39,648 nucleotides of DNA, from the IMG/VR virus record IMGVR_UViG_3300037502_002001, positions 1-39,648 of that record. One strand, 5' to 3'. A program made the position numbers and the translations under genes. Source of the DNA: a virus. Below are positions 2,514 through 39,422 of the stretch, piece after piece. Under the pieces are notes generated by a model, which was not told the origin of the DNA, ran no database searches, and saw only the letters and a program-made list of their open reading frames with translations. Numbering within the stretch: position 1 is the stretch's first letter; every line of letters begins with the position of its first letter.

Positions 2514-3313
2514 TACGCTAAGTCTCCTGTCATTATAAAGGTGTTAGTTGCAATACAATAAAGGTCAATTACTCTTCCTCTTTGTGCAGTTGGAGCAAAT
2601 GAACTTCCGCCAGGCACACTTCCCATAAAATAATAAATGGTTGTGCTTGGTCCTGTTACAATATTTACTTGTTGGTTGCTGTTGGTAAAAATCTTAAAAT
2701 ACGCCTGTGGTGTAATTACAGGCGAATCCGACAAAGTAAACGTAACAATACCAGAAGAATGGTTAGTGACAAACCAACCATCAGTCATTGCGTTAGTTAA
2801 GTTTGTGTTTCCTGAGCTCGAAATGGTTGTGATTGTTTTACCTTTGAACATTACGTTGTTACTTAGGCGAGCATCATCTACAGTACCAGTTGTTAATTCA
2901 CTTGCGTTCAATGAGGTAAGATTAGAGCCGTTTAGCGGAGGTAAATGTCCACTTGCGTTTAGTTGAACCAGTTGATTTAGTCCATTAAAGGTATTTCCCA
3001 GTAATGTTACTAATGAGTTGAGTAAGGTATTTGGTACTTTTCCGTTAATGTCTAATTTCAGTAATTTGTTAGCTGCATTAAATGAGTTTCCTTCAACTGT
3101 TACATTTGAACTAAGTCTTGCGTCATTCAGTGTACCAGAGGTCATAGAACTTGCGTCTGTTGTTCCGAAGATTGCTTTTAGGTCTGAGACCTCAGCCTTT
3201 TTTGTTACACCAGCAGCCGTATCTGAGACATCAACTATCGGTACAATATCAGTATCTGCAATAGTACTTATTTGACTAAGTTCGTTTATTCTTTTATCTA
3301 AAAATGTAGGCAT
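2513..3313 (-). CDS. Tail fibre-like protein with GTxxDARLSxNV repeats
   Basis: The 266-aa protein contains internally repeated segments. SGTLNDARLSSNV (about 59-71) recurs as TGTVDDARLSNNV (about 142-154), and NSFNAANKLLKLDINGKVP (76-94) recurs as a diverged NTFNGLNQLVQLNASGHLP (about 107-125). This repeat style is typical of long, thin phage fibre shafts. The N-terminus (FLDKRINELSQISTIADTDIVPIVD) resembles virion-attachment segments seen in such fibres. The C-terminal 100 residues are beta-rich and may be the tip. It lies first in a run of coupled genes with the cell-wall protein and the LDDL fibre. Confidence 0.68.
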   Translation of the reverse strand: MPTFLDKRINELSQISTIADTDIVPIVDVSDTAAGVTKKAEVSDLKAIFGTTDASSMTSGTLNDARLSSNVTVEGNSFNAANKLLKLDINGKVPNTLLNSLVTLLGNTFNGLNQLVQLNASGHLPPLNGSNLTSLNASELTTGTVDDARLSNNVMFKGKTITTISSSGNTNLTNAMTDGWFVTNHSSGIVTFTLSDSPVITPQAYFKIFTNSNQQVNIVTGPSTTIYYFMGSVPGGSSFAPTAQRGRVIDLYCIATNTFIMTGDLA

Positions 3314-3714: not shown

Positions 3715-4272
3715 TTAACAATTACAGTTTGGAGAATAAGGAGAACAACCAGTCATTAGATTTTCGATGTCCTCATAAAGCTCTTGTGCAAAAACATATT
3801 CTTCACAGTCAAAAGCTTGTACCATTCTGTCATACATTGACTTTATTTCGTAGAACTTATTTGTATCTAAGTTTCCTAAAGCTAGTTTACCTATGTTACA
3901 AACTAACTCGTTTACTCTCAAAGAATATCTAACATCCAAGTAAGAGTTGACACCTACAACAAAAGTAGCTTCGTATTTCCAAACTCCGTCTTTTAGTGTA
4001 ACAGAAGAAGTTATATCATAAGCTCTGTCAGTAGTTGTGAAGAAACTAGTAGTCAATAAGTTAAAGTCATTCACATCGACAGTGCTGCTTCCAGGATAAT
4101 AAATGTCTAACTGAATCGCAGAAACAGGAGAAGGTGTAGTGTGAGCTGGATTGTTCACACCCGTTGCATCCCAACCACCAGGATTGGTAACTCCATTGTA
4201 ATCTCCTGTTGCGTCAACGATTACGATTGAACTTTTATTATTTATGATTGATATTTTTGGTTCGAGTGCCAT
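3715..4272 (-). CDS. Conserved-looking virion-associated protein, unknown (185 aa)
   Basis: A 185-aa protein with a beta-rich first half (AIQLDIYYPGSSTVDVNDFNLL, then SVTLKDGVWKYEATFVVG) resembling a small beta-sandwich. The helical second half contains NELVCNIGKL and ends in a Cys-rich tail (TGCSPYSPNCNC). It is the first gene after the giant polyvalent gene and has a TATATTTG box about 14 nt upstream of its ATG, so it probably begins the fibre transcript. No enzymatic motif. I infer a tail or fibre-attachment structural role from position. Confidence 0.6.
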   Translation of the reverse strand: MALEPKISIINNKSSIVIVDATGDYNGVTNPGGWDATGVNNPAHTTPSPVSAIQLDIYYPGSSTVDVNDFNLLTTSFFTTTDRAYDITSSVTLKDGVWKYEATFVVGVNSYLDVRYSLRVNELVCNIGKLALGNLDTNKFYEIKSMYDRMVQAFDCEEYVFAQELYEDIENLMTGCSPYSPNCNC

Positions 4273-4314: not shown

Positions 4315-7300
4315 TTACTTTTTGATACCCTTCTTTTTGTTAATAGACTCTAACCATTTTTTGTTAAAGTCTGTTAACTCGCCAGAAACACCTTCTTCAC
4401 CCTGATTTGGTTTTGTCATTTCTAGAATTTCTTTACCTTTATCAAAATCAAATTTGATTTCTTCTAGGTTTTCTAAAGAAGGAGCCTGTAAATTAATATT
4501 ACCGAGATACTGCTTGTAGTTTTCTAGTTCTGGGTCACTGTACAATTCAGAAATAGCCTCTCCATAAATACTATTCTTTTCTCTTTCGACTAACGCTTGA
4601 AACTCTTCTGGTCTTTCTATGGCTAATTTTCTTCTTTGTTCGTTTATGATTGCTCTTTTTTCATTAAACAATACCGCATCTCCAGCACTGTATAACTTAG
4701 AAAGAGTTTTTCCTAACAAATAATAACCCAATGGAGTATTTAGGTCTGGTCCAGTTTGTCTATTCAATTCTGAATCAGGACTAATAAACTCTTTTATATC
4801 TGTTCCCTGAATAAAACCGTTTACAATTCTTCTTCTAGCTTCTCCTAAAGCAATTGCATAAGCCTGATACTCTTGCTGACTCATTGAGTATTTAGGACCA
4901 GCAATAGGAGTAATTTCAGGAGAAGGATTTGACGGCATTGCAGTAACGTCTCCTCCTTTTTTAACGGCTGCCATAACAAGCATTTCCCAAGTAATGTCGC
5001 CTTTTCCTCCCAACGCTTTGGTGAATTTAGTAATATCAAACGTATTGTAAATAAAAGCATTTCTATCTTCTGGAGTTTGTAAAATTCTTTTTCCAAATGG
5101 GTCTACTTTTGCAGGAAGAGAGTTTGGGTCATCAAACGGCCATCTTTCTTTTAGTTTGTTGATAAAATCGTATTTAATTTTTTCCCCCCATTCATACGGA
5201 CTGTCAAACTCAGGAACATAAGTTCTGTTCATTCTATCAATTATAGAGAACGAGTTTGGTAAAATGGCCGCACTCAATGTAGTAAGTAAACCTGTTCCTG
5301 CTCTTTCTACACCACCTCTATCAGCTTGACGAGGGTCAAATGCTTGCATCATTTGGTTTAAACCTCTCAAAAACGACTGTTCTATAACATACTGTAGTGT
5401 TTCTTTTAAATTAGGCAAAGGAATATTGTCTAACTGATTCCAAAGTGAAGCAGTTGCTGTTTCTTTTCTTTTTTCTTTCTCTGCATTTCTTGCCTCTTTT
5501 GCTGAAATGAACATCATACCTCCGATAACGCCTAAGAAACGATAATCTATAATAGCGTCACCAGGTCTCCAAAAACCATCATTTTCTCCTTTTCTTGCGC
5601 GTTCTAATAAAGAAAGGTTAATTGAATAAGGTCTTTCAAAACGATAAATAAAATCTTTGCGCTTTTCATCCTCATCTTGAGCACTTGCACTAATAGCACC
5701 TGAGTCAACAAACGTTTTAATTAACATTGACAAACCCAATCCAACAGCAGCTCTAGCAGCAGCTTCTTCAGCTCTTCTGCGATTTGTTAACATCTCGGCT
5801 TCTGCCTTTAGTTTATTTTGTGGATTTTTTGCAGAATCCATTTTTTTCTTTGAGTCAAGTGCTTGTTTTGTATAAATCGACGACATTATACCTCCGTATT
5901 CTGGCATCATAAATTGAGCATATTCTGATATGATGTTTGTTGGAACATTAACGTACGGAATTACACCAGAGCCCACTAACTTTCCTGCTTTTACAAATAC
6001 ATTATCAGTAGATTTAATATTTAAAGCACCTCCGATAAACTTAGATACTGGAGTTCTGTTTGCATATACAAATCTGAGAGCCTCATTCTTTGCAACATCG
6101 TTGGTAAAATCTGAGTTAAGTTTGATAAAGTTATCAACATCACTCTTATCTAATCTACCAGCAGCAACTTCAATCATAGCCTGTTCATATAATGCTCCGA
6201 AATATGCTGTATTTTTAAACAGTGCATCGGCTGAACCCAAGAATCTAAACATCAACTCCGCTGGTAATCCAACTATTCCTTCCCAAGCTTTTATAGCTTT
6301 TTCTTTATTTGGGATTTTTCCAGCCTGATTTAAAGAATATCCGTATTTTGTTGCTATTTCTTCAGAAGATTCTCCTCTTGCTGCATCAATCAAAGAACCC
6401 AAAAGCTGAGATAACGACCTGAATCCGTTGAATCCGTTTTGTGTTTCTAAAGTTTGGATAGTTTCTGGAATGTTTCCTTTTCTTATGATACGCGCTGCGT
6501 TTCTTCCACCCTGCATAAATCCATACTTCAAGGCAGCACCATAATACCCAAGTCCTCTATAAGTAGAAGTTGTGCCTGGAAAAAATTTAGATATGATTGA
6601 AGAAATTATGTTTACAGGAACATTCAAAATAGACTTTACTGTGTTAGCAGCAATGTTTACCATACCTGAATTAGGTGTAAGTAAATTACCTTGAATAAGA
6701 GTTTTGGCAGTTTTAGAATAACTTGCTTTGTCCACATAAGGAGCCGATAATTTAGCATAGGTTTCTGCTAATCCTTCTAACTCTCTTTCTAGTTTTTTAA
6801 ACAATTCCATGTTTGTATATCTAGAATCAATTGGACTTATAGCAGATGCGTTTTCTCCAGCTAATTGTCTAGCCTTTTCGTATTCTTCTTTCTTCTTGTC
6901 AAACTGTGTAGAAATAGTTTTTAGACGCTCTTTGATTGCCTGTGGAATTGTTCTCTTTTTGTCTTGTTCAAACTTTCTTATTAGAGATTCTGTTCTGAGG
7001 CTCATCGACCTTTTTCTAAGCTCTGTAAACCTTTGCAAAGCTCTACCTAAGTTAGTTCCAATAGCTACTAGTCTTTCGTAATCAGAAGTAATATCTTCTC
7101 CTTTTTGTTGTTTAGTAATTATATCTTGAATCAACTTATAAACAGCCACGTCCATCATACTGTTTTCTGCGATAGAATCTAAGACAGCCTCTTGTTCTTC
7201 TGCACTCATAGAGTTAACTTCTTTCAAAAGCTCGTCAGCGGTTCTTTTTACATAGTTTCCAGAAGCTTCGTCAGCCATCATAACCGATTCTGCTCTAAAT

Positions 7301-32158: not shown

Positions 32159-32244
32159 GAAGGAGTGGCGGAATTGGTAGACGAGTGCTTCCCATTAGAA
32201 CAGCACGCCCATAGCGGTTACAGGTTCGAGTCCTGTCTCCTTCT
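32159..32244 (+). tRNA. tRNA gene, leucine-type (long variable arm); anticodon uncertain
   Basis: Acceptor GAAGGAG (32,159-32,165) pairs fully with CTCCTTC (32,237-32,243), with discriminator T. The T-arm ACAGG-TTCGAGT-CCTGT (32,220-32,236) is perfect. The D-arm region TGGCGGAATTGGTAGACGA is like tRNA-Leu, with a terminal G-A mismatch. A variable arm with GCG pairing (about 32,205-32,219) makes it type II. The central arm is odd. Standard spacing gives a stem TGCTT/GAACA with one mismatch and loop CCCATTA, which has no U at 33 and an apparent CAT. Allowing a 12-nt loop closed by GTGCT/AGCAC would expose TAG (Leu). No CCA is encoded. Confidence 0.72.
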
Positions 32245-32246
32245 CT

Positions 32247-35080: not shown

Positions 35081-35164
35081 AAATAAGAATATTAAACATT
35101 TTCCCCATACATTACGCGCATACATACGGGCTTATATATTGGAATTTCACCACCGCGAAATTTC

Positions 35165-35314
35165 ATTTGTTTAAACAAATATCTAACTAATTAATAATCA
35201 ATCATTTATAAACATTTGTTTAAACAAATATAATTTTAGATATGGATTGTATCAATATGTATGTTTTGTAACTTATTGATTTTCAATTGATTATGTTTAT
35301 TTGTTTAAACAAAT
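35165..35314. repeat. Three copies of the palindrome ATTTGTTTAAACAAAT
   Basis: Perfect 16-bp palindromes lie at 35,165-35,180, 35,214-35,229 and 35,299-35,314, each followed by AT. They are 49 and 85 bp apart, start to start, and each contains GTTTAAAC. Identity across three copies points to binding by a dimeric protein. Confidence 0.8.
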
Positions 35315-35506
35315 ATTAACTTTTTTAAAATTATTTTTTTTGATGGTATTGTTTATAAAGATTTTATAACTATTTTTGAATCCTGAAATATCGCAAATTG
35401 TTAATCATAGGAAGAAAAGCCCTATAATTATAGCGTTATTGCGTTCTTTGAATTATTGTATTTTTGTTGGTAGTCAATTTAACCAATTTAACCAATTATT
35501 GAAAAA

Positions 35507-36124
35507 ATGACTACTAAAAGTAAAAAAGTAGTAACTACCATTGCGGAAAGTACTACACCGAAAAAAACATTTTGCCTATCATTAGAAATTTCGCAAAATT
35601 GCCAAATAAAACGAAGCAAAAAAGAAAAAAACGGCGTAACTTATGAATGGATTGATAACTATTGTGTTTCGCCTTATAAAATGTTATTGCAAAGTAACGA
35701 AAGTAATACAGAAACATTAGGTAAGTTGTTAGGCGGTGAAATTTACAAGTTTTTTCAACTTTTACAATTACAGAAAGATTTTAAGCAAAATAAATTCAAG
35801 TTAAACAAACCGATAAATCTTAAAATCGATTATTGGATTGATGAAAAAAACTACTCATTAAAGGTTACTAATGATATAAGCCTTAAATTCAGCGGCGAAA
35901 ATGCACCTTACAATTTCGCGTCGTTTTTGTTTGCTTCACTTTTAATTAATGTAGTAAAAGAAAATAATACTTTTGATGTAAGCAAAGTTTTTGAACTTAA
36001 GCCTACTAAAGGCGGTTATTATTCGACTAAAAACCTATCAATTTTCAGTCAGCAAAACAAAAGTTTACTTTTGAAAATGATAGATAGTCCATTAAGTGAA
36101 CTTGAAACGTTCGTATTAAATTAA
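35507..36124 (+). CDS. Unknown protein, 205 aa, CG-dinucleotide-rich gene
   Basis: A 205-aa basic protein, MTTKSKKVVTTIAESTTPKKTFCL, with strands such as YSLKVTNDISLKFSG. It has no clear motif and ends SLLLKMIDSPLSELETFVLN. Its codons include many CG-containing ones (GCG, CCG, TTTCGC, GGCG), unlike the recombination and virion genes around it. It lies between the repeat-rich control region and a good terminator and so forms a single-gene unit. An initiator or regulator binding the nearby palindromes is a testable possibility, not a supported call. Confidence 0.6.
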   Translation: MTTKSKKVVTTIAESTTPKKTFCLSLEISQNCQIKRSKKEKNGVTYEWIDNYCVSPYKMLLQSNESNTETLGKLLGGEIYKFFQLLQLQKDFKQNKFKLNKPINLKIDYWIDEKNYSLKVTNDISLKFSGENAPYNFASFLFASLLINVVKENNTFDVSKVFELKPTKGGYYSTKNLSIFSQQNKSLLLKMIDSPLSELETFVLN

Positions 36125-36192
36125 CTAAACTAAAAAAACAAAAAAAAAAATAAACCGACTACCAACAAAAACAATAATTCATTAAGCAAATT

Positions 36193-36218
36193 AGGAACAA
36201 TTTATTTGTTCCTTTTTT
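36193..36218 (+). terminator. Rho-independent terminator after the 205-aa gene
   Basis: AGGAACAA (36,193-36,200), loop TTTAT, TTGTTCCT (36,206-36,213) form an 8-bp perfect hairpin running into TTTTTT. It isolates the 205-aa gene from the structured region downstream. Confidence 0.85.
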
Positions 36219-36795
36219 GCGTTTATATTCCGTATTAATATAGTATGTTGATGCGGAAGCAATGCAGTAAATTAGTAAACTTGTATAGACGTAAACCTAT
36301 ATAAGATATTTATTGCGGGAGTTGTGTGTGCTAATTTATATTAGTTATGTTGGCAATGATAAACTTCCTTAGTGTTTAATTTGTATTATCTGAGACCTCG
36401 GTCTTTGGTAATCGCGGAACGCCTATTCCGTTGGGACTTGTCCCTTTACGCCCTACATTGCGGTAGGACAAATTAAGATACACAAAACACTCAATCATAC
36501 GCAAGTGGTCTAATCAACCACAGATAGCCAGTACGGGCAATCCGCCCTTTATGGGGAATAGACGGGAATACATGATAACACCGTCGCGGATATTCTAAAA
36601 TAGAATATTATCGAATACGTACTAAGTAGTAATTATGCTACAAACTACACTAACGAATCAAAGTGCAGTGGTCTAACTAACCATTGCACTACTCTGTTAT
36701 TGGGTGCGGACACATACAGCACAAAGTCTGTATGGTGTCTGTCTTCGATGCAACGCACCCACCAAAACCAAAAAACAAAAAACCAATTTAAAACT
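36219..36795 (+). ncRNA. Candidate large structured non-coding RNA
   Basis: These 577 nt hold no convincing gene but a dense series of hairpins. In order: CTAAT/ATTAG (36,331-36,344), AGAC/GTCT with CTCG loop (36,393-36,404), CGGAA/TTCCG (36,415-36,430), GGGA/TCCC (36,433-36,444), CCTAC/GTAGG (36,452-36,467), GTGGT/ACCAC (36,505-36,521). Then GGGC/GCCC (36,535-36,547), GACGG/CCGTC (36,561-36,585), ATATTCTA/TAGAATAT (36,590-36,608), AGTGCAGTGGT/ACCATTGCACT (36,662-36,690) and a closing minihelix (36,702-36,760). Wobble G-T pairs fall on the plus strand, which favours plus-strand RNA. Phages do carry giant RNAs of the ROOL and GOLLD classes. I cannot assign this one to either. Confidence 0.6.
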
Positions 36796-36960
36796 ATGGT
36801 ACAAGTTAAATTCTTAACTACGGCTGAAATCAACGCGATGCGTGACAAGTACAAGCCAAAAAAAGTAAACGGACAAACTAAGTTTTCTAACGGCACACCG
36901 AAGCAAAACAAGCGGAAAGTTTACGGAGTTACAACAGAGAGTAAGTATTATCGTGCGTAA
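36796..36960 (+). CDS. Small basic protein, 54 aa, unknown
   Basis: The start at 36,796 (MVQVKFLTTAEINAMRDKYKPKKVNG) is preferred over an upstream in-frame ATG inside the structured region. The protein is basic (many Lys/Arg) and rich in Asn/Gln, ending TTESKYYRA. It follows an A-rich leader with no Shine-Dalgarno sequence. Possibly nucleic-acid-binding; no family recognised. Confidence 0.5.
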   Translation: MVQVKFLTTAEINAMRDKYKPKKVNGQTKFSNGTPKQNKRKVYGVTTESKYYRA

Positions 36961-37233: not shown

Positions 37234-37521
37234 ATGAGCAACAATCAACAAACTATGAAACTATACACTGAAGAACAAGTAAGAATGTTAGATATTAATT
37301 GCGGAAATTCAACATTAGATGAAGTTATTGGATGTTTAACCCCCATCGAACTACCAAGTGCAACGGGAGGGTTAAATCAAAATGATAATGATAAAGAGTT
37401 ATTCTATCAAAAACAAGTAATGAATCCTTATAATACTGGAGAGAATACTTATACTGCATACGAAAAAGGTTTTATTGAAGGATGGTATAAAGCAAAACAA
37501 ACCTACGGAGGTAACAAATGA
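37234..37521 (+). CDS. Cassette protein, 95 aa, ending in YGGNK
   Basis: Starts MSNNQQTMKLYTEEQVRMLDI, then EVIGCLTPIELPSATGG and a closing FIEGWYKAKQTYGGNK. The segments YTEEQ...LTPIELPS and (F/G)...(G)Y.KAK(E/Q)TY recur in small Bacteroidetes phage proteins and, in diverged form, in the 206-aa protein of this array. The last four residues GGNK are encoded by the Shine-Dalgarno sequence of the next gene (GGAGGTAACAAATGA), with the stop overlapping the next start. This gene itself lacks a Shine-Dalgarno site and is preceded by an A-rich leader. Function unknown. Confidence 0.68.
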   Translation: MSNNQQTMKLYTEEQVRMLDINCGNSTLDEVIGCLTPIELPSATGGLNQNDNDKELFYQKQVMNPYNTGENTYTAYEKGFIEGWYKAKQTYGGNK

Positions 37522-37781
37522 AAAAATTAATATTAATAACAACATTACTCATCGGAATGATGGGATGTTCAGAACGAGGGGATTTACGTCTACAACCTCA
37601 AGATTTTATTGAAATAAATGGCAAAGTTTACAAACTTGTAAGTATTGTACCAGCAGATGGGGAACATCCTATTTGGATAATGTATCCGAAAGATACAACA
37701 GACAAAATGCCTCAAGTGTTAAACTATGAAGTTAAATCAGGGAAAACAACACAAAACCAAGCAGTAATTAAAATTGATTAA
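37518..37781 (+). CDS. Probable lipoprotein, 87 aa
   Basis: The N-terminus MKKLILITTLLIGMMGCSERG has two lysines, a hydrophobic core and a Cys at 17 after MMG, matching a signal-peptidase II lipobox in outline. The mature part (RLQPQDFIEINGKVYKLVSIVPADGEHPIWIMYP) is beta-rich and about 70 aa long. It would be anchored in a host membrane. Phage lipoproteins of this size often block superinfection, and that is a possible role here, by inference only. It uses the strong GGAGGT linker overlapping the preceding gene. Confidence 0.7.
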   Translation: MKKLILITTLLIGMMGCSERGDLRLQPQDFIEINGKVYKLVSIVPADGEHPIWIMYPKDTTDKMPQVLNYEVKSGKTTQNQAVIKID

Positions 37782-37797
37782 AATACGGAGGTAACAA

Positions 37798-38418
37798 ATG
37801 AAACACGAAATTATCTACACGGAACACTACGCACTTATTGTAAGTGATGAAAAAGTAGTAGAAGGTGACACCCTATTTTGTACAGAAATTAAAAACTTAA
37901 TGATTGGTGGAATAACATCAGAACAACTTAGGTATTTGGATAGTGAAATATTTAAAAAAGTAATCGCACACCGACCATTAACAGATGCACCTATTCTTGA
38001 AGGAGTTCCTTTGATTCCACCATTTTCCCGATGTCAAGAAGATGGTGCCGAAAATGCAGTTAGTGAATTTAAAAAAACATATGGTTCACTTGGAGCAGCA
38101 GACTATGAACTATCTGCTTTTTCAAAAGGTTACAACAAAGCAAAAGAAACCTACAAGTACACTGAAGAGGATTTGAGAAAGGCATTTTTAGAGGGTAATA
38201 AATATCCCCAAGAAAGCAAATTATTACCAGACTTTTACTTAGGTAATTTCTATAATAGATTTATACAATCTCTTCAACAACCAAAACGTCCTAAGTATTT
38301 TGAGTATGAGATGGCAAGAATAACAAAATTCAATGGAGAGCCAGACTATTTTGAACCAAACTCCAAACCCAACCCCCAGGGTCAAACAGAATTAGTAGGA
38401 GAATATATTTATGAATAA
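37798..38418 (+). CDS. Cassette protein, 206 aa, with GYNKAKETY and QGQTELVGEY motifs
   Basis: A 206-aa protein starting MKHEIIYTEHYALIVSDEKVVEGDTLFC. Its middle (SAFSKGYNKAKETYKYTEEDLRKAFLEGNKY) contains two 'FxxGYxxAKETY / YTEEDLRKAF' units shared with the 95-aa protein. It ends PNSKPNPQGQTELVGEYIYE, a closing motif I recall from small Bacteroidetes phage proteins. No enzyme motif is evident. A GGAGGT linker precedes it, and its end overlaps the next gene by 8 nt. Function unknown. Confidence 0.68.
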   Translation: MKHEIIYTEHYALIVSDEKVVEGDTLFCTEIKNLMIGGITSEQLRYLDSEIFKKVIAHRPLTDAPILEGVPLIPPFSRCQEDGAENAVSEFKKTYGSLGAADYELSAFSKGYNKAKETYKYTEEDLRKAFLEGNKYPQESKLLPDFYLGNFYNRFIQSLQQPKRPKYFEYEMARITKFNGEPDYFEPNSKPNPQGQTELVGEYIYE

Positions 38419-38803
38419 CCTAGAAAAAGAATTTGTACCATTTGAGATTGCTTTAGAGTTAAAGCAACTTGGATTTAATGAAATTTGTTTTGGATATTGG
38501 TATACTGAACAAGAAGAATTTAAAAAGATTGATATACAATTATCATCAATTGGTTTTTTAGAAGGAGAACCAGATTATATTTTAGCACCAACCTACTCAC
38601 AATGCTTCAGATGGTTTAGGGAAAAACATAATCTTAAATCTTGGATTCAGGAACATAGATCAGATACTTTTATCTACGAAATAAGACCTCATGTGCTAAG
38701 TGATTATAAACAAGGTGAAACTTATGTTTATACTAATTATGAAAAAGTAGAACTTGCTTGTCTTAGAAAGTTAATTGAAATAGTAAAGGGAGGTAACAAA
38801 TGA
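38411..38803 (+). CDS. Cassette protein, 130 aa, of the MNNLEKEFVPFEIALELKQLGF type
   Basis: Begins MNNLEKEFVPFEIALELKQL and continues GFNEICFGYWYTE. Then come APTYSQCFRWFREKHNLKSW and the end KVELACLRKLIEIVKGGNK. I recognise the layout (EFVP...ALELKELGF, aromatic-rich middle with QAFRWFREK, closing LACLKKLIEIVK) as a family widespread in Bacteroidetes phages. No function is known for it. The terminal GGNK comes from the next linker. The site AGGAG (38,397-38,401) about 9 nt upstream is a likely weaker Shine-Dalgarno site. Confidence 0.75.
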   Translation: MNNLEKEFVPFEIALELKQLGFNEICFGYWYTEQEEFKKIDIQLSSIGFLEGEPDYILAPTYSQCFRWFREKHNLKSWIQEHRSDTFIYEIRPHVLSDYKQGETYVYTNYEKVELACLRKLIEIVKGGNK

Positions 38804-39000
38804 GCAACAATAAACAATATGTAGCGACTTTTACAACAAGCATACAAATTTCACCAGACAATTTTAAATTGATTAATCCATCAATGCTTTGTGATGAAAA
38901 TACAACATTAGGAGATATTGAAAAGTTTGTTAAAGAAAATCATTGGAACGGAATAATAGAAGTTAGAATTACTGAATTAACATACGGAGGTAACAAATGA
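38800..39000 (+). CDS. Cassette protein, 66 aa, starting MSNNKQ
   Basis: A 66-aa protein, MSNNKQYVATFTTSIQISPDNFKLINPSM, ending IIEVRITELTYGGNK. It has beta strands at both ends, with a helix at GDIEKFVKEN. The MSNNKQ start is shared with two other array genes. The terminal GGNK is the translated linker. It starts and ends with 4-nt ATGA overlaps. Function unknown. Confidence 0.65.
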   Translation: MSNNKQYVATFTTSIQISPDNFKLINPSMLCDENTTLGDIEKFVKENHWNGIIEVRITELTYGGNK

Positions 39001-39260
39001 GATTCAGAATAGTAAGAATAATCCATAACGTAAATGAATTAAAATTTGAAGATGGTAACTTTACACAAGAATATGTAATTGAGAAAAAACGATATGGTTT
39101 GTGGAAAGAGGTTGTGCAAACCGAAGTAGAACCAAAAAGAATATCTCACAAAACATATGAAGATGCTGAAGCATACATGGTTGCTAATTACATGGGACAT
39201 GGAATATGTAAAATTATTGGGAATGAATATGAATACACAGAATACACTTATTATGTTTAA
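38997..39260 (+). CDS. Cassette protein, 87 aa, unknown
   Basis: An 87-aa basic protein: MRFRIVRIIHNVNELKFEDGNFTQEYVIEKKRYGLW, with AEAYMVANYMGHGICKIIGNEYEYTEYTYYV at the end. Strand-rich; no family recognised. The start is set by GGAGGT at 38,986 overlapping the previous gene. It does not end in GGNK; the next linker lies outside its frame, 7 nt downstream. Confidence 0.62.
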   Translation: MRFRIVRIIHNVNELKFEDGNFTQEYVIEKKRYGLWKEVVQTEVEPKRISHKTYEDAEAYMVANYMGHGICKIIGNEYEYTEYTYYV

Positions 39261-39278
39261 AATACAAGGAGGTAACAA

Positions 39279-39422
39279 ATGAAAACACCATATTTAGATT
39301 TAATGATTGACGAATTAATTGTTATTTCAGTAAGAAGGTCATTAACAATTTCAGAACAACAAAAATTAAAAGAACTTCAAGCAATTAAAAAAATATTAAA
39401 AGGAGGTAACAATGAGCAATAA
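39279..39422 (+). CDS. Cassette protein, 47 aa, unknown
   Basis: This short gene follows the GGAGGT linker at 39,268. It encodes MKTPYLDLMIDELIVISVRR, then SLTISEQQKLKELQAIKKILKGGNNEQ. It is helical and ends with KGGNNEQ because the last codons read through the next linker. It overlaps the following gene by 11 nt. The spacing and linker make it likely to be real despite its size. Confidence 0.6.
   Translation: MKTPYLDLMIDELIVISVRRSLTISEQQKLKELQAIKKILKGGNNEQ

Follow-up and report, generated by a model that had tools for sequence, protein, structure and literature searches.

To our knowledge, only a few very large structured phage RNAs have been described (ROOL and GOLLD), none of which has an established function. 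ROOL is a multimeric RNA nanocage with kissing loops. Both classes are often located near transfer RNA (tRNA) islands, and tRNAs may lie near or inside GOLLD (PMC12286853). This work describes a candidate for a further class in IMG/VR virus record IMGVR_UViG_3300037502_002001. All 39,648 nucleotides (nt) of this record (positions 1 to 39,648) were analysed and are called the window below; the encoded proteins include a portal protein (PHROG 6547) and a RecE/YqaJ-like exonuclease. Between a 205-amino-acid (aa) gene and a 54-aa gene of the window lies a gene-free region that we read as a stand-alone plus-strand RNA of ~550 nt belonging to an uncatalogued family. We assign this reading a probability of roughly 0.6, and less to each of the mechanistic steps proposed below.

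A sequence-only reading of the region had described a hairpin-dense, nearly non-coding stretch that starts after a terminator, ends at an A-rich leader and might be a large non-coding RNA. This description was borne out. Where at least ten hairpins had been claimed, the predicted fold shows about a dozen, in order, and both the intrinsic terminator and the A-rich stretch leading to an ATG were confirmed (Table 1). No open reading frame (ORF) of at least 60 aa with an ATG, GTG or TTG start lies within positions 36219-36644, and none is common to the region and its relative L003. The stop-to-stop frames inside the region are short, and of the two ORFs touching its 3' end, one extends the frame of the 54-aa gene and the other runs antisense. 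A degraded gene was considered and dropped; none was seen in the region.

Four relatives hold the same RNA, and all five contigs derive from uncultured phages, the host group of which is probably Bacteroidota. A search with the 54-aa protein retrieved contig 3300033067_000449 (G001, locus L003), in which the gene order is the same: a 197-aa homologue of the 205-aa gene, a terminator, a hairpin-rich gene-free stretch and a homologue of the 54-aa gene. The portal proteins of the window and L003 are 83% identical, whereas their RNAs are only ~55% identical in alignment. More relatives were collected with the portal protein; two of them, L059 and L060, also carry the element, and a DNA pattern built on their 3' part led to the fifth member, L112. 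The RNA measures 550-690 nt and occupies the same phage slot in 5/5 members, with a sequence that is mostly unalignable. No real relative was obtained in DNA-level searches of named phages and plasmids with the window, L003 or L112, in DNA and protein searches of a collection of 50,697 named phages, or in a portal peptide scan of GTDB genomes. The loop motif GTGGTCTAAYYAACCAY matched 15 other contigs, which was judged to be chance, and among the 28 stretches matched by pattern TCTTCRATGNAACGYACC the relevant one was only the already known G001 contig.

Plus-strand folding is far beyond chance in the window, L003 and L059. For positions 36215-36795, the plus strand reaches -175 kcal/mol, compared to -129.8 +/- 7.1 for shuffled sequences (z -6.4; no shuffle out of 100 reached this energy), and the z of the minus strand is -2.8. 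When the whole window was tiled in 550-nt steps on both strands, the plus-strand tile at 36219 ranked first of 144 (z -9.7, 15 shuffles); the other tiles have a mean z of -0.9 (sd 1.3, minimum -6.0), and protein-coding control stretches score between -0.2 and -1.6 on the plus strand. In L003, a 671-nt fold gives z -5.5 (plus) and -1.0 (minus), and a slightly shorter piece -3.2 and -1.1. These scores in the window and L003 back the plus-strand preference that had been noticed in the wobble pairs.

The fold is also conserved between members. As five-way RNAalifold on the sequence alignment was poor, the sequences were compared in pairs, and consensus-fold z-scores were measured against column-shuffled alignments. 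For the window and L003, the plus-strand consensus energy is -46.9, compared to -16.6 +/- 4.3 after shuffling (z -7.0; minus strand -2.8). The L112/L060 pair scores -9.7 on the plus strand and -7.4 on the minus strand, with 26 compensatory pairs where shuffles average 12.6 (maximum 19). One L112/L060 helix is altered on both sides in 6/6 pairs (AAUUGC/GCAAUU to UGCAUU/AAUGCA); further changes in this pair are CUAUG/CAUAG to AUAGG/CCUAU and GUGUGU/GCACAC to GUAUGU/ACAUAC. From the window to L003, UUGCG/CGCAA becomes UUACA/UGUAA and GACG/CGUC becomes CACG/CGUG. The motif GCRAUGCA comes after the 5' hairpin in both of these, and counterparts of the tandem hairpins were found in L003, L059, L060 and L112 when the alignment was read by eye. 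Comparative folding had been named beforehand as a possible refuter of a non-coding RNA; the helices of the relatives instead show compensatory changes and a plus-strand consensus fold. Together with the four relatives and the missing degraded gene, this supports the proposal of a large non-coding RNA, and we consider it very likely that the region is a genuine conserved structured RNA.

A distinctive part of the RNA is its 3' end. All five RNAs share a composite in which a stem of 7-9 base pairs (bp) that starts with GGG encloses a hairpin followed by a second, short one; 0-1 nt separate the latter from the 3' strand of the stem. In the window, L003, L059 and L112, it combines a 7-bp acceptor-type stem, a T-arm-like hairpin with a UUCRA loop (UUCRAU in full) and a terminal N-CCA, which reads A-CCA in the first two and U-CCA in the last two. 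The predicted layout is that of a tRNA acceptor stem and T arm, with one hairpin replacing the D and anticodon arms. The element was misaligned by MAFFT because the middle hairpin varies in length, and the stem pairs were therefore tabulated by hand. The stem occurs as GGGUGCG/CGCACCC, GGGCAAG/CUUGCCC and GGGGUAG/CUAUCCC, so that pairs 4, 5 and 6 are each altered on both sides between members. The T-arm-like hairpin likewise changes from UGC-UUCAAU-GCA in L059 to UGU-UUCGAU-ACA in the closely paired L112 (UGC/GCA to UGU/ACA). Its stem is only 3-4 bp long and is bulged in the window, and neither ARAGORN nor Rfam called a tRNA at 36702-36764. A scan of 1.37 Mb of fetched DNA that required the stem, GAC, [UG]UCRA and then ACC matched at these five places only, and two full shuffles gave no match.

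Clearer elements with an acceptor stem and T arm stand directly before ORFs in other phages of the group, namely L084, L079 and L060. The L084 element (92 nt) has the acceptor GGTCGGT/ACCGACC and the T arm GAGGG-TTCGATT-CCCTC, followed by ACCA; those of L079 measure 91 and 46 nt and that of L060 54 nt. Truncated tRNA-like elements of this type, upstream of ORFs or edging gene-free regions, were recorded at L079(-) 2957-3047, 2172-2217 and 4619-4679, L084(-) 3164-3257 and L093 14807-14860. None of them was called by ARAGORN in standard mode.

The RNA is linked to a gene for a small basic protein, which directly follows it in the window, L003 and L059 and comes after a 131-aa gene in L060 and L112. 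The proteins of L059, L060 and L112 are short, likely homologues of the 54-aa protein, based on alignment and synteny. The terminator before the RNA is retained in L003 and L059 with stem sequences that differ from those of the window. In L059, one terminator precedes the RNA and another follows the small-protein gene, and that strand has no terminator in the interval; L112 has the same terminator after the small-protein gene. Just before the RNA of L112 and L060, at an aligned place, lies a match to TTG-N19-TATCTTYG, which we take to be a Bacteroidota promoter form; in these contigs, a match of this kind is found about every 5.8 kb on each strand. These signals suggest that the RNA forms a bounded transcription unit.

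Table 1. Positions of the RNA, its predicted substructures and its surroundings in the window
Feature	Position	Strand	Remarks
Upstream neighbour gene (205 aa)	35507-36124	+	Orthologue with 42% identity at the same place in L003
Inverted repeat flanking the 205-aa gene	35449-35475 (5' arm); 36157-36181 (3' arm)	+	
Intrinsic terminator	36193-36213	+	Divides the upstream 205-aa gene from the RNA
Large structured RNA	36219-36764	+	5' end within 36217-36228; end of 3' element at 36764
5' hairpin UUCCGUAUU...GAUGCGGAA	36228-36258	+	L003 counterpart UUCCGUUAG..CUAGCGGAA, 3 compensatory pairs
Hairpin 2	36263-36317	+	Outer stem UGCAG/UUGCG, kept in L003 as UGCAA/UUGCG
Hairpin GUGGUCUAAUCAACCAC	36505-36521	+	Direct repeat D11; similar second copy inside 36662-36690
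Tandem hairpins CCCUUUAUGGG and GACGG...CCGUC	36545-36585	+	Compensatory pair in window/L003 and in L112/L060
Hairpin GUAGUA..UGCUAC	36626-36641	+	L003 GUUGCA..UGUAAC: one double and two single-sided changes
11-bp hairpin AGUGCAGUGGUCUAACUAACCAUUGCACU	36662-36690	+	Scored terminator-like, but without a real T run after it
3' tRNA-like element	36702-36764	+	Composite common to all five phages
Acceptor-like stem GGGUGCG/CGCACCC	36702-36708/36754-36760	+	
Middle hairpin of 3' element	36709-36739	+	
T-arm-like hairpin	36740-36752	+	Loop UUCGAU; A-CCA at 36761-36764
A-rich unstructured leader	36765-36795	+	Precedes ATG at 36796
54-aa basic protein gene	36796-36960	+	Directly downstream of the RNA; 59% identical in L003

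Several results weigh against our reading. In L060, the fold alone is not unusually stable (z -0.9), the short-hairpin loop is UCGAA, and the stem is followed by ACAA, without N-CCA. The scan for the 3' element was designed from the first four members, and L112 is therefore its sole independent test. The promoter search before the RNAs of the window, L003 and L059 gave no match. The window/L003 pair has 15 compensatory pairs, which is inside the shuffle range (mean 13.0, maximum 18); this count is uninformative by itself, and only the folding energy of that pair stands out. Finally, a sequence profile of L112, L060 and L059 did not match the window and L003 significantly (best cross-match E = 0.14), and the two sets were therefore joined by synteny, the 3' element and the tandem hairpins.

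Sequence comparison shows that the locus retains its fold while little of the sequence is kept, that it has no ORF and a fixed genomic position, that its 3' tRNA-like element is common to the members, and that a gene for a small basic protein comes next or one gene further downstream. We propose that the RNA is transcribed from its own promoter and that host tRNA-processing enzymes would act on the tRNA-like element, with RNase P on the 5' side and 3' trimming after the CCA position. The 3' end of the RNA would thus probably be set by tRNA-type processing. Such processing would free a stable RNA from the messenger RNA (mRNA) of the downstream small basic protein, similar to tRNA punctuation. 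The freed RNA may then play a structural or ribonucleoprotein-type role while the phage infects its host, possibly with the small basic protein bound to it.

The main rival explanation is a very long structured 5' leader, including the tRNA-like element, that regulates the translation or stability of the downstream genes in cis. It would account for the fact that the scanned members have no true terminator separating the RNA from the ATG, for the A-rich leader and ORF that always directly follow, and for the small-protein gene that is always near. The first downstream gene nevertheless varies, being the small-protein gene in the window, L003 and L059 and an unrelated or remotely related 131-aa gene in L060 and L112, and 550-690 nt is long for a leader. 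We consider a leader unlikely, though a serious candidate.

A far-diverged ROOL, GOLLD, group I or group II intron or transfer-messenger RNA (tmRNA) beyond recognition by Rfam is improbable. The size and phage location of the RNA do resemble those of ROOL and GOLLD, both often near tRNA islands (PMC12286853). The covariance models of Rfam 15 (4227 families) were searched with E-values up to 5-10 for the window, L003, L060 and L112 and at the gathering score for L059. None of the five members matched a family at the gathering score, nor convincingly at permissive E-values, in agreement with the sequence-only reading, which could match the region to neither ROOL nor GOLLD. The group I and group II intron models gave no match. 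A tmRNA was rejected as well: the final 63 nt of the RNA contain both strands of the acceptor stem, so that the tRNA-like part is complete there, unlike that of tmRNA, and neither ARAGORN nor Rfam made a call, although no separate search for a tag ORF was carried out. An ordinary tRNA with D, anticodon and T arms was called by neither program.

The element could also be the remnant of a phage tRNA array decaying in an accessory region, without present function. This phage group does carry unusual and truncated tRNA-like elements, and the 3' element looks like a tRNA lacking the D and anticodon arms, but the compensatory changes and the fixed location indicate a maintained fold, and no tRNA was found in the RNA body by ARAGORN or Rfam, making decay very unlikely. 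A structure that works as DNA, such as a single-strand origin, packaging or recombination site, would fit hairpins that fold on both strands (minus-strand z of -2 to -3 in the window) but is just as hard to sustain, given the plus-strand preference in the window and L003 (G-U pairs become A-C on the other strand), the flanking terminators and the aligned promoter-like sites in L112 and L060.

The upstream 205-aa gene has a probable orthologue in L059, and its protein had no match in Pfam, PHROG or NCBIfam. Its structure model was too weak (predicted local distance difference test, pLDDT, of 54), making a PDB search with that model meaningless, and homology between the 131-aa and 205-aa neighbours was unsupported (hhalign probability 3%). 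An inverted repeat surrounds the upstream gene in three phages, namely the window, L003 (2610-2630/3284-3304) and L059 (19 nt), with arms of 19-27 nt that are unrelated in sequence between phages and complementary within each. Among 996 ORFs tested for flanking arms, only the orthologues of the upstream gene have them. This pattern suggests an mRNA panhandle of the upstream gene. One could extend the stand-alone RNA reading to a three-part system, consisting of an RNA released by tRNA-like punctuation, a small basic protein that binds this RNA and a neighbour gene with mRNA ends joined by a fast-evolving, always complementary inverted repeat; this extension is speculative, and we doubt that it holds in full.

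Other structured elements were observed in this phage group. L079, L084, L081, L089 and L061 also have structured gene-free stretches in this slot, and the membership of these stretches in the RNA family was not shown. Those of L079/L084 and L081/L089, upstream of the portal gene, reach consensus-fold z-scores of -7 to -8, with a plus-strand bias near a tRNA-like 3' end in L079/L084, and possibly form a second RNA family. The tRNA at window positions 32159-32245 is called Trp(CCA), yet has a class-II-like D arm and a long variable region, and near-identical copies are found in L054 and L055. Long insertions bring tRNA-like genes to total lengths of 124-146 nt at L091 16359-16504, L097(-) 3947-4070 and L062(-) 5771-5894. 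Elsewhere in the window, an AT-rich gene-free stretch (35162-35316) contains the palindrome TTTGTTTAAACAAAT three times and is origin- or operator-like, and GGAGGTAACAAATG start contexts are repeated before a run of small genes (37488-39412; D1-D4), unlike the A-rich leaders of other genes.

A further, unrelated family of large phage RNAs with a defined 3' end, a bounded unit and an adjacent small basic protein would offer a tractable route to the role of such RNAs in infection. Moreover, the tRNA-like terminus yields a specific, testable prediction of how the RNA leaves its transcript.

Compared to the described systems, the RNA resembles ROOL (RF03087) as a large, gene-free and heavily folded phage RNA of comparable size, but no member matches the ROOL covariance model, and the RNA terminates in a tRNA-like element, after which comes the gene for a small basic protein. 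Like GOLLD (RF01998), it is a large phage RNA that varies in its 5' part and is better conserved in its 3' part, but it is shorter, has no Rfam match, and its tRNA-like part is truncated and terminal. Its tRNA neighbourhood comprises one odd tRNA 4 kb away in the window and the truncated tRNA-like elements in relatives. Like tmRNA, it is a large RNA with an acceptor stem and a T-arm-like hairpin, yet its tRNA-like part is not built from both ends of the molecule. The truncated tRNAs and tRNA punctuation of mitochondria are similar in that reduced tRNA-like elements stand between transcripts and ORFs, as in L079, L084 and L060, but here the element follows a large structured phage RNA and its processing is inferred. 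The best reading is therefore a new family within the kind of large structured phage RNAs, set apart by its tRNA-like terminus and its linked small protein.
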